Source: Actinoalloteichus caeruleus DSM 43889
GTDB lineage: Bacteria > Actinomycetota > Actinomycetes > Mycobacteriales > Pseudonocardiaceae
Reading direction: 5' to 3'
DNA length: 64,000 nt
Assembly (NCBI RefSeq): GCF_000429185.2
Contig: NZ_AUBJ02000001.1
Location: 4,154,001-4,218,000, forward strand
The position numbers were made by a program, and so were the translations under genes. The notes below the pieces were generated by a model, which saw only the letters and a list, made by a program, of their open reading frames with translations, ran no database searches and had not been told where the DNA came from. This document shows positions 41,648 to 48,503 of the stretch, one piece after another. Positions within the stretch are counted from its first letter, which is position 1. Each line of letters starts with the position of its first letter.

Positions 41648-42979
41648 GTGACAGCAGCCACCCCCTCCCCAGCTCCGGTTCCCCCCGACGACACCTACCT
41701 GCGCGCGCTGAACGAGGCGACCGCGCGGGCCGTCGCGGCGGCGGAACCCCTGACGTCGCCCTTCGCCGGCGCGGACACCGAGGTCGGTCAGCTCGTGGGC
41801 GCGGAGCTGGGGCGGCACGAGGACGCGTTGCTGGCGCTCAGCCACGACCTCCACGCCCACCCCGAGGAGGGCTTCGAGGAGCACCGGTCCGCTGGCGTCG
41901 TCGCCGAGCTGGTCCGCGCGGCCGGGCACGAGGTGACCGTCGGTGTCGGCGGGCTGGACACCGCGGTGCTGGCGACCTCGGGCACCGGCGGCCCGCACAT
42001 CGCCGTCCTCGCGGAGTACGACGCCCTCCCCGGGATCGGGCACGGCTGTGGGCACAACATCATCTGCTCCAGCGCGGTCGGCGCGTTCCTCGCCGCCGCC
42101 CCGGCGGTGGCGCGCACCGGCGGCCGGGTCTCGCTGCTGGGCACGCCCGCCGAGGAGGGGGGCGGCGGCAAGGAGTTCCTGGCACGGGCCGGCGTCCTCG
42201 ACGACGTCGACGCCGTGGTGATGCTGCACCCGTTCTCCCACGACGTGGCGATGCACCCCTTCCTGGGGCGTCGTCAGCTGGAGATGGTCTTCCACGGAGT
42301 GGCGGCGCACGCGTCCGCCCAGCCCTTCATGGGGCGGAACGCGCTGGACGCCGCCGTGGCCGCCTACCAGGGGGTGGCCGCGTTGCGGCAGCACCTGCCC
42401 GACAGCGACCGCGCGCACGGCGTCTTCACCGACGGTGGAGCCCGGCCCAACGTCGTGCCGGACCGGGCGGCACTCCGCTTCTACCTGCGGTCCGCCCGAC
42501 CCGAGACGCTGCGCGACCTGGCGGGCCGGGTGGCGGCGGTCGCGCAGGGAGCGGCGCTGGCACATGGCTGCGGTGTCGAACTCCGCTGGGACGAGCGGCC
42601 GCCCTACCTGCCGATCCGCTTCAACGAGGCCCTCGCCCGGCGCTGGGCGACGCACCAGGAGAGCCGGGGGCGACGGTCGCTGCCCCCGAACGTGGTGCCC
42701 TCCTCCCTCACCGGGTCGACTGACCTGGGCAACCTCAGCTTCCGGGTGCCGGCGATCCACCCCATGATCGCGATCGGCCACCCGGCGATCTCGATGCACA
42801 CCGTGGAGTTCGCGGAGGCCGCCGCTGGCCCTTCGGGGGACCGGGCGGTGCTCGACGGCGCCTTCGGGCTCGCGATGACGGCGGTCGACTACCTCGCCGA
42901 CGACGAGCTGCGCGCGGCGGTCCAGGAGGAGTTCGCGGCGGCCGGCGGCCCGTTGGACGTTCCTCGGTTCTTCGACTGA
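41648..42979 (+). CDS. M20D amidohydrolase, AbgB-like (p-aminobenzoyl-glutamate hydrolase)
   Basis: Protein of 443 residues. Motifs of the M20D branch: LSHDLHAHPEEGFEEH, LAEYDALPGIGHGCGHN (metal ligands), LLGTPAEEGGGGK, VAAHASAQPFMGRNALDA in the lid domain and ISMHTVEFAEAA (C-terminal His). AbgB-like enzymes cleave the amide bond of p-aminobenzoyl-glutamate, a folate breakdown product, or of N-acyl amino acids. The next gene on the strand is an AbgT-family transporter, which favours the folate-catabolite reading. The GTG start is probably leaderless. Confidence 0.88.
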   Translation: MTAATPSPAPVPPDDTYLRALNEATARAVAAAEPLTSPFAGADTEVGQLVGAELGRHEDALLALSHDLHAHPEEGFEEHRSAGVVAELVRAAGHEVTVGVGGLDTAVLATSGTGGPHIAVLAEYDALPGIGHGCGHNIICSSAVGAFLAAAPAVARTGGRVSLLGTPAEEGGGGKEFLARAGVLDDVDAVVMLHPFSHDVAMHPFLGRRQLEMVFHGVAAHASAQPFMGRNALDAAVAAYQGVAALRQHLPDSDRAHGVFTDGGARPNVVPDRAALRFYLRSARPETLRDLAGRVAAVAQGAALAHGCGVELRWDERPPYLPIRFNEALARRWATHQESRGRRSLPPNVVPSSLTGSTDLGNLSFRVPAIHPMIAIGHPAISMHTVEFAEAAAGPSGDRAVLDGAFGLAMTAVDYLADDELRAAVQEEFAAAGGPLDVPRFFD

Positions 42980-43529
42980 CCGGTTGGGGGACACCGGCGG
43001 CCCCCCTCCTACCCTGGGGGCGCGCCGCCCGGGGCGGTCGCGGTCCGAACGGGCCGGACCGACCCGCCCTCGGCCCGGGCACCGGAACGGCCCGGTCCTG
43101 ACGTCGTCCCGTGGGGCGCCTGGCGGAACGCCCGCGTTCGGGGCCTGGTGCGCGCCCGGCCCGGCCGTGGTGGTTCCCCGGGTGCCCGCGTCGGTTCGGG
43201 GACTCGGACCTGGGCGGCGTGGGGACGGGCCTCGGCGGCCTCGCGTCCCCCGCCGCTCCGACCGCCCCGTGCTCCCGGTGGTTCGCCGCCGCGCCCCGGT
43301 CGGCCCCCCGGTGGGCGCGGAGGTTCGGTCGGGGCCGCGCCAGGCCCCCGGCCCCCGCCTGGACCCCTGCCGACGTCGTGGGCCGGCCTTCCCACCAGTC
43401 CCGGCCCCCGGTCCGCCTCGGCCGTCCCGGGAGGACCCACGTTCGGCTGATTGCTCGTGATCTCCCTTGTGGCGCCTCAGGTCCACCCGAAGGGTGTGCA
43501 CCGGCGTACGGCACGGGGAGGTGGCGCGG
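42980..43529. other. Intergenic, no gene seen
   Basis: About 550 bp, very GC-rich, between the amidohydrolase and the AbgT gene. Open frames are Pro/Arg/Gly-rich on all strands. No clear hairpin beyond background. Confidence 0.5.
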
Positions 43530-45137
43530 ATGGCGCGTGGTGGGCGGGGACGCGGGAGCGGTGGGGCTACCTCCGCCGGCGTCGGCGGCGTGTTGGGGTG
43601 GATCGAACGGGTCGGGAACCGGCTGCCGGAGCCCTTCGTGCTCTTCGCCCTGCTCACCCTGCTGGTCGGCGTCGTCTCGACGGTGCTGGCCGCCTTCGGT
43701 GCCGCCGTGGTGGTACCGGGGGAGGACGGGGTCACCGAGGTGCGCGGCGGTTTCTCCGCCGAGGGCATCCGCTTCCTGTTCACTGAGATGCCGGCCAACT
43801 TCATCGGTTTTCCCCCGATGGAGACGGTGGTGACGATCATGCTCGCCGTGGGGTTGGCCGAGCGGACCGGGATGTTGACGGCGCTCGTCCGGATCGCGTT
43901 CGCCCGGGCACCCCGGGGGCTGCTCCCCTACGCGGTCGGCTTCGTGGGCGTGTCCGGCAGCGTCATGTCGGACTCGGTGTTCATCGTCGTACCTCCGCTG
44001 GCCGCGATGGTGTTCCGCGCGGCGGGACGGCACCCGGTGGCCGGCCTGCTCGGCGGCTTCGCGGCCGCGGGTGCGGGTTACTCGACGTCCGTGCTGGTCA
44101 CGAGCCTCGACGCGCTGTTCGCCGGCATCACCAACAGTGTCGTGTCCTCCCTGGCCCAGCCGGGCACCGAGGTGACGGCCCTGTCCAACTACTACGTGAA
44201 CGTCGTCTCGGCGGTCGTGCTGAGCCTGCTGGTCGGGGTGGTCATCACCCGGGTCGTGGAGCCGGGTCTGGAGCGGTCCGGATTCCCCCGGTCACCGGTG
44301 GTGGAGGACGACCCGCCCACCGGCCCCGCGGACCCGCCCGTCGACCTGGACCAGGTGTCCCCGACGGTCACCGCCGCCGAGCGGCGTGGTCTCGCCGCCG
44401 CCGGCCTCGCGCTGCTCACCCTCGTGGTCATGTTGGGGGCCCTCGCCCTGTGGCCCTCGTCGCCGTTGCGCGCCGAGGACGGCGGTTACCTGCCGTCGTC
44501 ACCGCTGTTGTCCTCGGTCACCACGCTGACCTTCCTGGCGTTCGCCGTGCCGGCCATCGCGTACGGGGCGACCACCGGTGCTATCCGGACCTCGGCCGAT
44601 GTCCCCCGCCTGGTGGGGCTGGCCGTGCGTGACCTGTCCGGTTTCATCGTGCTGGCCTTCGCCCTCGGCCAGTTCGTCGCGCTGTTCGGCTGGACGAACA
44701 TCGGCACCTGGCTCGCGGTGCGCGGCGCGGAGTTCCTGCGCGGCAGCGGGCTGGAGGGGTACCCGGCCCTGGTCGGGTTCGTCCTGCTGGCCTCCGTGCT
44801 GAACCTCCTCATCATCTCCGGGTCGAGCCTGTGGACGCTGCTGGCCTCGGTGTTCGTGCCGATGTTCCTGCTGGTGGGCTTCGAGCCCGGCTTCACGCAG
44901 GCGCTGTTCCGGGCGGGCGACTCCGTCACGCAGGTGATCACCCCGATGAACCCCTACGTGATCGTGCTGCTCACCTTCGTCCGCCGGTACCAGCCCACCG
45001 CCGGGCTCGGCACGGTGATCGCGCGGATGCTCCCCTTCGTCGTCCCCTTCTGGGTGGCGTGGCTCGGGATCCTGACGCTCTTCTACGTGGCCGAGCTGCC
45101 GCTGGGACCGGGAATGGGCGTCCTCGTCGGGGAGTGA
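43530..45137 (+). CDS. AbgT-family transporter
   Basis: Protein of 535 residues with 11-13 membrane segments. Family marks include LGWIERVGNRLPEPFVLFALLTLLV at the N-terminus, ETVVTIMLAVGLAERTGMLTALVR, GFVGVSGSVMSDSVFIVVPPLAAMVF, GGFAAAGAGYSTSVLVTSLDALFAGIT and SSLWTLLASVFVPMFLLVGFEPGFTQALFRAGDSVTQVITPMNPYVIVLL. Characterised relatives import p-aminobenzoyl-glutamate (AbgT) or export sulfonamides (MtrF/YdaH). The ATG has GGGGAGGT upstream. It is downstream of the AbgB-like gene and separated from it by 550 bp. Confidence 0.93.
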   Translation: MARGGRGRGSGGATSAGVGGVLGWIERVGNRLPEPFVLFALLTLLVGVVSTVLAAFGAAVVVPGEDGVTEVRGGFSAEGIRFLFTEMPANFIGFPPMETVVTIMLAVGLAERTGMLTALVRIAFARAPRGLLPYAVGFVGVSGSVMSDSVFIVVPPLAAMVFRAAGRHPVAGLLGGFAAAGAGYSTSVLVTSLDALFAGITNSVVSSLAQPGTEVTALSNYYVNVVSAVVLSLLVGVVITRVVEPGLERSGFPRSPVVEDDPPTGPADPPVDLDQVSPTVTAAERRGLAAAGLALLTLVVMLGALALWPSSPLRAEDGGYLPSSPLLSSVTTLTFLAFAVPAIAYGATTGAIRTSADVPRLVGLAVRDLSGFIVLAFALGQFVALFGWTNIGTWLAVRGAEFLRGSGLEGYPALVGFVLLASVLNLLIISGSSLWTLLASVFVPMFLLVGFEPGFTQALFRAGDSVTQVITPMNPYVIVLLTFVRRYQPTAGLGTVIARMLPFVVPFWVAWLGILTLFYVAELPLGPGMGVLVGE

Positions 45138-45202: not shown

Positions 45203-45225
45203 GCTCACTCCTTGGAGTGGAGCAG
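45203..45225 (+). promoter_or_regulatory. Duplicated upstream box of exported ACP-like genes, copy 1
   Basis: GCTCACTCCTTGGAGTGGAGCAG. The same box (GCTCACYCCTTGGMGTGGA-GCAG, allowing one inserted base) precedes the second ACP-like gene, and both are followed by CGCTACG before the start. Confidence 0.55.
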
Positions 45226-45300
45226 CCCCGGTGCTCAGGCGCTACGAGTGAGTAGAGCAGAGCATCGATGCGGAAGTTGGACGTGGGAAAGGAGAACACT

Positions 45301-45777
45301 GTGGGACAGCGTCGTGGGTACCTGTCAGTGCTGATCGGCCTGTCGGCCGCATCCGTCCTCGTCGCCCCGACCGCGTACGCGGAGGCGGTGAACGGGTCGA
45401 CGGCCAGCGAGTCCCCAACCGGTACGTCGACCCACGGGGAGCTGGCCGAGGAGGAGAGGGCACTCGGACTCGGAACGCTCCGCGACCAGATCCACGGTCT
45501 CGTCGCGGACCAGCTGGGAATCAGCTCGGTGTCGGTGGAGGACGAGCACCACCTCGTCGACGACCTCGGGGCCACCGAGGAGGACACCGCCAGCATCGTG
45601 GACGGGGCGGAGGCCACCTACGGCGTCCAGCTGCTCCAGCTGGACGTGCGGGAACTCAGCGATGTCGGATCCCTCGTCCTGCTGGTGCGGGACAAGCTGG
45701 TGTCCGTGCTGAACGGTGACGCGCTGTCGACGGATGGCGGCGCGACGAGTGAGGTGGCATCCCGGCCCGCGAGGTGA
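45301..45777 (+). CDS. Exported ACP-like protein without phosphopantetheine serine
   Basis: Protein of 158 residues. The GTG start is preferred because AAGGAG lies seven bases upstream. A Sec signal peptide (RRGYLSVLIGLSAASVLVAPTAYA) probably ends at residue 27. Residues 58-137 align along the whole acyl carrier protein fold: LRDQIHGLVADQLGI, HHLVDDLGA, then helix II to IV ending VRDKLVSVL. Where carrier proteins have GADSLD, this has GATEED, so the serine that holds phosphopantetheine is Glu93. The family is not one I can name. An exported, non-modifiable carrier-fold domain is odd; a binding or structural role is more likely than acyl transfer. Confidence 0.85.
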   Translation: MGQRRGYLSVLIGLSAASVLVAPTAYAEAVNGSTASESPTGTSTHGELAEEERALGLGTLRDQIHGLVADQLGISSVSVEDEHHLVDDLGATEEDTASIVDGAEATYGVQLLQLDVRELSDVGSLVLLVRDKLVSVLNGDALSTDGGATSEVASRPAR

Positions 45778-45853
45778 CGGTGGTGAGCGGGGGGTGAACC
45801 CGGGTTCTCCCCCGACGTGCGTGCCGGCACCGGTCCGGCCGGCCGGTACGCGT

Positions 45854-45889
45854 ACGGAGGTCCTGAGCACACGAGCCCAGGACCTCCGT
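45854..45889 (+). terminator. 12-bp perfect hairpin
   Basis: ACGGAGGTCCTG and CAGGACCTCCGT enclose a 12-nt loop, 77 nt after the first ACP-like gene. Confidence 0.75.
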
Positions 45890-46519
45890 GTTCGTTCGGG
45901 AGCCGTGGTCGCCAGGAGGACCGGCGTGGCCGGGGCTCCGATGACCCCGTGATGCGGGCGGTCAGGCGTCCCCGCGGGGTTCACCAGGTCGCGGGTGTGA
46001 CGCCTGGCTCCGAACGCCGGTACCGGACGTGGTCGCCCAGCACGGCGACAGGACAGCGCGGTGGCGGCCGGTACCCGTCAGCCGAGGAGCCGCGCCGGAC
46101 TTCCTGCCCGTGGCCGTGTCCGGCGATCCCCCGCCCTGCTCGTCGATCGGACGACGTCGTGCACGCCGGACGGGAACAACGCCCGCCCGAGTTCGTGGCT
46201 CCCAGGGTGCGCGGGAGGCTCCCCCTGGTCGAGGATCCCGAACCACGGGTGCGCCGAGCGTTGCCGGGGTGGGTTGCCCGTGCTGGGCGGACCGGACGTT
46301 GGCGCGCCCGGGTTCCGGCGTTGGGCCACCGGCGTGCCGCCAGTGCCGGCCAGCTCGTACCGTCGCGGAGCGACAGCGACGACCCGTGCGGGACGTCCCC
46401 CACCACCTTGACCGTGGCTCGGCACGGGACGGCCTCGCGCGGCGGCCGGGAATGCGCTGTCCGATGAAACGAAAGCCTTCTCCCACACGGGTGGATAGAG
46501 CCGTGTGGTCCGGAAGTGC
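45890..46519. other. Intergenic, no gene seen
   Basis: About 630 bp between the two ACP-like genes. Frames on both strands are Arg/Pro/Gly-rich with no domain. No repeat or mobile element seen. Confidence 0.5.
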
Positions 46520-46549
46520 CTGGTGGTGGCCATTGGTCGCCACCACCAG
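46520..46549. repeat. 11-bp perfect inverted repeat
   Basis: CTGGTGGTGGC and GCCACCACCAG with an 8-bp centre, 10 bp upstream of the duplicated box. It may be an operator or a hairpin insulating the second gene. The first gene lacks it. Confidence 0.5.
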
Positions 46550-46559
46550 TGTTAGTGGC

Positions 46560-46584
46560 GCTCACCCCTTGGCGTGGAAGCAGG
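46560..46584 (+). promoter_or_regulatory. Duplicated upstream box of exported ACP-like genes, copy 2
   Basis: GCTCACCCCTTGGCGTGG followed by AAGCAGG; matches copy 1 with two substitutions and one inserted A. CGCTACG follows at 46609, 47 bp before the start. Confidence 0.55.
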
Positions 46585-46655
46585 GGCGTCACGGAGCGCG
46601 CTTGTCCCGCTACGCGGAGTATCTGGATGGGTTGCCCACCGAGAGGAGAGAACCT

Positions 46656-47474
46656 GTGTGGCAGTTTCGCAAGGAGTTGGTAGTCGCCGTCGCGGCGGCC
46701 GCGTCGAGCCTGTTCCTGGCGCCGCTCACGTCGGCGGCGGCGGCCGAGGGACCGGCCGCTGAGGTCGCCGGCACCCCGGTGTCCGGTGTGGGGACGAGCT
46801 CGCCACGGTCTGACGCGGGTTCCGCCGTGGCGAGACACGACGCGCGCCCGAGAGAACCCTTGTTGGACGAGGTACGGGAGGAGGTGCACGGCATCATCTC
46901 CGCGCGTCTCGCCGTTCCGAGGCGGGAGATCGACGACTCCCTCCACCTGCGTCGGGACCTCGGCGCGACAGCCGAGGATCTGGCTTCGATCAGCCGCTCG
47001 GTCGAGGAACGCTACGAGGTCACCCTGCTGGCGGACGAGGTCGCCGCGTTGCAGAGCGTCGGGGATCTGGTCCACCTCGTGGGGGACAAGGTCGTCCACG
47101 CACTGCTCGACGTGGTGATCTCGGAGACCTCGGAGACCTCGGAGACCTCGGAATCGTCGGTCTCCGGCGGAGGGTGCGGCTGCGCGCCGTGCTCACCCTG
47201 CTTGCCCGGCGACCCGGGTGGCCCCGGTGACCCGGGCGACCCCGGTGACCCGGGTGACCCGGGCGACCCCGGTGACCCGAGCGACCCGGGAGACCCGAGC
47301 GACCCGGGAGACCCGAGCGACCCGGGAGACCCCGGTGACCCGAGCGACCCGGGGAAGCCCGGCAAGCCGGGGAAGCCCGGCAAGCCCGGCAAGCCGGGTG
47401 AGGGCGACGGTTGCGAGTGCCTGCCGGGTTCGCCGTCCAAGCCCAAGGACATGAGCTCGGACGGACGACTCTGA
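46656..47474 (+). CDS. Exported ACP-like protein with collagen-like, cysteine-flanked tail
   Basis: Protein of 272 residues. GAGGAG precedes the GTG. A Sec signal peptide ([27 protein letters not shown]) is followed by a linker, then an ACP-like domain (70-151: [42 protein letters not shown]). The carrier serine is replaced by Ala106 in GATAED. Next come [12 protein letters not shown] (156-167), a CGCAPCSPC cluster (174-182), 22 triplets of G-x-P type (185-250, first GDP/SDP, last five GKP) and CEC (253-255). The acidic and basic triplet blocks could pair between chains. Four triplets start with Ser instead of Gly, so a collagen triple helix would be interrupted. It is a diverged tandem paralogue of the upstream gene. 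Confidence 0.85.
47208..47405 (+). repeat. Short tandem repeat coding for (G/S)DP and GKP triplets
   Basis: 22 nine-base units of the type GGTGACCCG/GGCGACCCC/AGCGACCCG and GGCAAGCCC/GGGAAGCCG. Length is expected to vary between strains by slippage. A smaller 9-bp repeat (GAGACCTCG) lies just upstream at about 47122-47150. Confidence 0.9.
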
Positions 47475-48044: not shown

Positions 48045-48503
48045 ATGACCCAGCACATGCCCATCGCGGCCGACGACCTGGTGCCTACCGCGGACTCCTC
48101 GAGATTCAGCTGGTTCCACCACCTCAAGGGGTATGACGAGGAAACCGGTCCGGTCACCAGCATGGTCGAGATCGGCCCGAAGAAGCAGCTCGTCGTGTTG
48201 CGACTCGCGTCGACCATGCTCGGCACCATCGGGTTCGAACGCGGTCAGGCCGAGCAGGCCGCCTCGGCGATCCGGGGCCGGGTGCGGTCCGCCGTGACGG
48301 TGCTGCACCCGTACGCGGTCGTCGCCCGGCTGTACCTGGCGGCCGCCGTGTCCGGAGTGGTCCTGTGGCTGGACGGCGACCGCGTCCCCGACTGGCGGGT
48401 GCGGTTCGGTGGGGAGGCGGCGGACCGACTGGCGGTGTTGTTGGAGGAGGGAGCCACGATGTTGCGGTCCCCCGTCCACGAGTTGGCGTCGCGGTCCTTC
48501 TGA
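48045..48503 (+). CDS. Hypothetical protein, 152 residues
   Basis: I do not recognise the family. No signal peptide. An N-terminal region with aromatic residues (SSRFSWFHHLKGYDEE) leads to an alpha/beta segment (QLVVLRLASTMLGTIGFERGQAEQAASAIRG), a hydrophobic helix (AVVARLYLAAAVSGVVLWL) and a C-terminal amphipathic helix (AADRLAVLLEEGATML). GGGAGG precedes the ATG by four bases. Codon bias is normal for the genome, so a real gene is likely. It may be soluble or membrane-associated. Confidence 0.75.
   Translation: MTQHMPIAADDLVPTADSSRFSWFHHLKGYDEETGPVTSMVEIGPKKQLVVLRLASTMLGTIGFERGQAEQAASAIRGRVRSAVTVLHPYAVVARLYLAAAVSGVVLWLDGDRVPDWRVRFGGEAADRLAVLLEEGATMLRSPVHELASRSF

Follow-up and report, generated by a model that had tools for sequence, protein, structure and literature searches.

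Two paralogous acyl carrier protein homologues with predicted export and without the carrier serine in Actinoalloteichus, one of them with a collagen-like tail

Acyl carrier proteins (ACPs), which normally reside in the cytoplasm and shuttle fatty acids, are a textbook case of a protein defined by a single modified serine. The ACPs of type II fatty acid synthases (FAS; PF00550, NCBIfam TIGR00517, NF002148 and NF002150) share a homologous acidic four-helix domain with two proteins, here called A and B, which are encoded in a stretch of 64,000 nucleotides (the window) of the 6.04 Mb genome of the soil actinomycete Actinoalloteichus caeruleus DSM 43889. Both align without gaps over about 75 residues with the solved type II ACPs of Thermotoga (6lvt, 6lvu) and Aquifex (2ehs), with identities of 22–28%, but differ from type II FAS ACPs in that they lack the carrier serine and its DSL motif, have an altered recognition patch, are predicted to be exported and have no adjacent FAS genes. 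In addition, B resembles the collagen-like surface proteins of the Scl1/SclA type (PF01391) in its predicted export and in the succession of a head and a charged, Gly-X-Pro-rich repeat. Unlike these proteins, B has a head with an ACP fold, a short repeat with serine instead of glycine in 4 of 21 triplets and no LPXTG anchor, and as a whole protein it stays below the Pfam cut-off. A third point of comparison is provided by the colicin E immunity proteins, which belong to SCOP fold class a.28, the fold class of the ACPs. Like A and B, they are acidic four-helix proteins that employ a related fold without a carrier role, but they are cytosolic and paired with a toxin gene, and no sequence similarity to A or B was seen.

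Both genes are located on the plus strand and have their own ribosome sites (Table 1). Gene A starts with GTG at 45301, preceded by AAAGGAG, and gene B with GTG at 46656, preceded by GAGGAGAG. An ATG at 45268 was rejected as start of gene A, since this codon is not conserved but reads AGG in Actinoalloteichus spitiensis, the nearest relative compared. The earlier note had described the genes as tandem; they are neighbours, with both open reading frames in place, but they stand 878 bp apart and are not an operon. Based on the individual ribosome sites and the inverted repeat following A, the two genes appear to be transcribed separately. With an identity of 36% over the full length and about 42% in the domain, the proteins are paralogues; they share a signal-like N-terminus, a low-complexity linker of about 30–40 residues and one complete ACP-like domain. 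Protein A ends shortly past this domain.

Table 1 Features of the locus. Positions refer to the window.
Feature	Position	Strand	Basis or detail
Upstream element of A, GCTCACTCCTTGGAGTGGA	45203..45221	+	contains perfect dyad CACTCC-TT-GGAGTG; ends 79 nt before start codon
Gene A, ACP-like protein with predicted export, 158 aa	45301..45777	+	ORF and translation
Predicted signal peptide of A, MGQRRGYLSVLIGLSAASVLVAPTAYA followed by EA	45301..45381	+	hydropathy and inspection
ACP-like domain of A	45469..45717	+	PDB sequence matches, AlphaFold2, Foldseek
Carrier site of A, GATEED, Ser to Glu (codon 45577-45579)	45568..45585	+	gapless alignment to ACPs
Inverted repeat 3' of A, possible terminator	45843..45900	+	26-nt arms, 77% complementary, 6-nt loop
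Upstream element of B, GCTCACCCCTTGGCGTGGA	46560..46578	+	ends 77 nt before start codon
Gene B, ACP-like protein with predicted export and collagen-like tail, 272 aa	46656..47474	+	ORF and translation
Predicted signal peptide of B	46656..46736	+	hydropathy and inspection
ACP-like domain of B	46863..47121	+	PF00550, NCBIfam, AlphaFold2, Foldseek
Carrier site of B, GATAED, Ser to Ala	46962..46979	+	gapless alignment to ACPs
Cysteine cluster of B, CGCAPCSPC	47173..47207 (limits approximate)	+	translation
Collagen-like tail of B, 21 triplets	47208..47396	+	translation, Pfam Collagen, tandem repeats

The relationship to ACPs was evaluated with sequence profiles and structure prediction. PF00550 matches B above its cut-off (26.5 bits versus 20.8) and A alone below it (14.1 bits, E 0.057). 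Nevertheless, A alone matches solved ACPs in the PDB with an E-value of 1.7e-7 and no gaps, the NCBIfam ACP model yields 8.2e-8 for A and 1.4e-9 for B, and a combined A/B profile reaches 8.6e-10 against solved ACPs, ungapped over 75 residues. In these PDB alignments the hydrophobic core residues of ACPs are retained. AlphaFold2 predicts a four-helix domain within disordered flanks for both proteins, with a domain pLDDT of about 77–93 (in blocks) for A and about 87–93 for B. As only three sequences went into the prediction and its five models diverged considerably (for A from 71 to 50), the fold assignment rests on sequence and structure together. The best PDB matches retrieved by Foldseek have a TM-score of about 0.9 and an rmsd of about 1 Å (A to 6lvu, rmsd 1.0 and TMt 0.93; B to ACPs, rmsd 1.0–1.3), and the PDB entries among the matches listed are exclusively ACPs or ACP-containing complexes. 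These data establish ACP ancestry and an ACP fold for A and B at the level of sequence and model; the domain that had been aligned by eye is confirmed in both proteins, and the absence of a significant fold match, named earlier as a possible objection, was not observed.

The same comparison bears on the idea that the acidic four-helix head is an inhibitor or immunity-type protein that neutralises an extracellular enzyme or toxin, in the way the acidic colicin immunity proteins act within the cell. The fold class offers a precedent for an acidic four-helix binder without carrier function. However, sequence and Foldseek matches are ACPs, no immunity protein appears among the matches listed and no toxin gene was recognised next to A or B; we regard this idea as very improbable.

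The serine that receives 4'-phosphopantetheine is absent from A, from B and from the A orthologue of A. spitiensis. In the gapless alignment, the DSL carrier motif, D35-S36-L37 of Escherichia coli AcpP, is replaced by T-E-E in A and its orthologue and by T-A-E in B, and the AcpP positions L37, V40 and M44 at the start of helix II are E, A and D/R in A/B. V40 and M44 are known contact residues in AcpS-ACP and FAS-ACP complexes, and L37 is likewise a partner-recognition residue. With DSL as well as the V40 and M44 positions replaced, the whole recognition patch is altered, and the loss of the site also takes away residues read by phosphopantetheinyl transferases. The T-x-E-D sequence of A and B still offers a helix N-capping pattern. 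Furthermore, the 16-residue stretch around the altered site, HLxxDLGATxEDxASI, is the best conserved between A and B, with 12 of 16 identical residues compared to 23 of 65 (Fisher P 0.005, with the stretch picked post hoc), and serine is kept in all ten other carrier domains that were read in the same genome. Since the DLGATxED replacement is common to A, its orthologue and B, the loss is older than the duplication that gave rise to A and B, and its conservation between the paralogues indicates that it is old and maintained rather than a single recent mutation. This agrees with the replacements GATEED and GATAED as first stated and answers the concern that homologues might keep the serine. Read in this way, the sequences show that the ACP domains of A and B have lost the prosthetic-group site completely.

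The family is known from two species of Actinoalloteichus and comprises three sequences. The search for more members proposed in the earlier note recovered the A orthologue of A. spitiensis (84–85% identical) and no homologue of A or B outside the genus among 250 genomes of the family, 395 of the class and 397 of the phylum and in one scan of viral contigs. The equivalent of B in A. spitiensis would fall into an assembly gap, as the alignment to one contig ends at about 45810 and that to the next begins at about 47525. Where loci matched outside the genus were read, they proved to be either conventional ACPs with the serine or spurious frames, most of them antisense to ACP genes, and in other genera no such pair was present within 1.5 kb of the Septum_form gene. 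In high-GC genomes, frames antisense to conventional ACP genes received E-values of 1e-5 to 1e-10 from the A/B profile at more than five loci; weak matches to this profile should therefore not be taken as relatives, which is a trap for six-frame searches.

The comparison of A with its orthologue shows purifying constraint, with a dN/dS of 0.49 overall and 0.33 in the domain; the value for the neighbouring AbgT gene is 0.25 and that for the linker of A is about 1.4, based on few sites. It could be argued that A and B are decaying orphan genes, derived from an ACP that was duplicated, was deprived of its site and now drifts without function, as the occurrence in a single genus and the linker value (small numbers) might indicate. 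We consider this quite improbable given the open frames, the strong ribosome sites, the dN/dS of the domain, the common upstream element and an altered site that is conserved between paralogues of only about 42% identity.

Both N-termini show a basic n-region, a hydrophobic core of 15 residues, which are the most hydrophobic of each protein (Kyte-Doolittle mean 2.3–2.4), and an end of the A-x-A type (AYA before EA in A, TSA before AAA in B). The signal-peptide-like N-terminus claimed for both proteins is thus borne out, whereby the putative signal peptides were called from hydropathy and inspection. Protein A contains QRRGYL and might use either the Sec or the Tat route; B has no twin arginine. 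We infer that both proteins are exported after signal cleavage. One of the two main rival explanations is that release fails, with A and B being membrane-anchored or, if translated from internal starts, cytosolic ACP-like regulators. Export is a prediction, and a GGAGG is located just 5' of an internal GTG at 45388, but the spacer to this codon is too short and all three known sequences have the n-h-c layout of a signal peptide, with small residues in positions −3 and −1. Moreover, the DNA of A that covers its leader and signal peptide (45232-45378) is nearly unchanged in A. spitiensis, with 2 differences in 147 bp where about 18 would be expected (divergence nearby, 12%), and there are no synonymous changes in the signal region. 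A lack of release is hence decidedly unlikely in our view. A search for an RNA element that might explain this conserved start region yielded neither a folding signal (z 0.19) nor a match in Rfam.

The first reading of the locus had missed the collagen-like tail of B and the upstream element shared by both genes. The tail consists of 16 (G/S)-D/G-P triplets followed by five GKP triplets, the types being (G/S)DP, GGP and GKP. It deviates from an uninterrupted Gly-X-Y rule, as glycine leads 17 of the 21 triplets and serine the other four. Pfam Collagen (PF01391) scores B with 26.7 bits against a cut-off of 27.2, and with 31.3 bits when neighbouring stretches are included. The tail follows the cysteine cluster, and behind it a CEC motif leads into the polar end of the protein. 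On the DNA level the tail is composed of in-frame 9/18/27-bp tandem repeats, and its length may vary between strains. Frames on the opposite strand of the repeat outscore the real frame in Pfam Collagen, which is an artefact.

The upstream elements of A and B (Table 1) share a 19-mer consensus, GCTCACYCCTTGGNGTGGA, which occurs twice in the window, upstream of the two genes and nowhere else there. Its 16-bp core has four copies in the 6.04 Mb genome, and the other two are located within unrelated ORFs or at their ends. A. spitiensis retains a variant of the element. As this palindromic element is situated at the same distance from both starts, A and B are probably co-regulated single genes. 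In Streptomyces, promoters of the developmental BldM group I regulon carry the palindrome TCACcCgnncGgGTGA (PMC4125116). The sequences TCACTCCTTGGAGTGG and TCACCCCTTGGCGTGG resemble this box, as a partial match in which the final A and the central g/c are missing. The genome contains a single strict box, which sits at an ORF end and not in a promoter. With a partial motif and no support from the genome check, control of A and B by BldM is kept as a lead only; if it were true, it would suggest expression during aerial development.

Taken together, we see about an even chance that A and B represent an exported 'dead' ACP fold that is reused as a binding or structural head, carried by a charged stalk in the case of B. 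The original interpretation is partly supported, with fold and carrier-site loss supported, secretion predicted and a binding or structural role inferred. A and B would be a co-regulated pair of exported paralogues, so far seen only in Actinoalloteichus, in which a type-II-FAS-like ACP domain is kept without carrier function as a small acidic four-helix head. This head may act by protein-protein or cation contact via the rewired surface of helix II instead of acyl carriage. The cysteine cluster and the charged (GDP)n/(GKP)n tail of B could make up a stalk, held by disulphides and either collagen-like or extended, by which the head would be positioned in or on the cell wall, and A, as a stalkless head, may be a soluble partner or competitor of B. 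More tentatively, and with somewhat less than even confidence, it may be speculated that this is a genus-specific extracellular system of 'dead' ACP recognition heads, one on a surface stalk and one secreted in soluble form, which are switched on jointly.

The other main rival explanation is that the exported fold acts as a non-covalent ligand module, which would use its core pocket to hold a lipid, or its acidic helix II to hold Ca2+, and require no partner protein. Binding of divalent cations and enclosure of acyl chains are established properties of ACPs, the hydrophobic core is kept, and both proteins are strongly acidic in their mature form, with net charges of −18 (A) and −26 (B) and pI values of 4.2 and 4.3. 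However, acidity is common in secreted proteins of high-GC actinobacteria and in all ACPs, and A has not retained the classical second cation site known from E. coli AcpP. We regard a ligand module as unlikely, though worth considering. If the genus-specific system of recognition heads outlined above is real, it would be, to our knowledge, the first account of a true ACP homologue that works outside the cell in a non-carrier role; no description of exported or serine-less ACPs was found in the literature searched, which covered few subscription journals. A conserved, exported ACP homologue with rewired carrier site and recognition patch would show that evolution can turn the ACP fold into a module for use outside the cell. 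Model-based annotation is likely to name B 'phosphopantetheine-binding' or 'acyl carrier protein', a label that would misstate both its function and its location.

The neighbours of A and B are genes for AbgT, an M20 peptidase, Septum_form and a DoxX-like protein, and no FAS, polyketide synthase or non-ribosomal peptide synthetase genes are adjacent. Upstream of A (41648-45137), the M20 peptidase gene adjoins that of the AbgT transporter, possibly as a pair for uptake and cleavage of p-aminobenzoyl-glutamate; AbgT precedes A in A. spitiensis as well. Downstream of B, a small ORF of 152 aa without Pfam match is located at 48045-48503.
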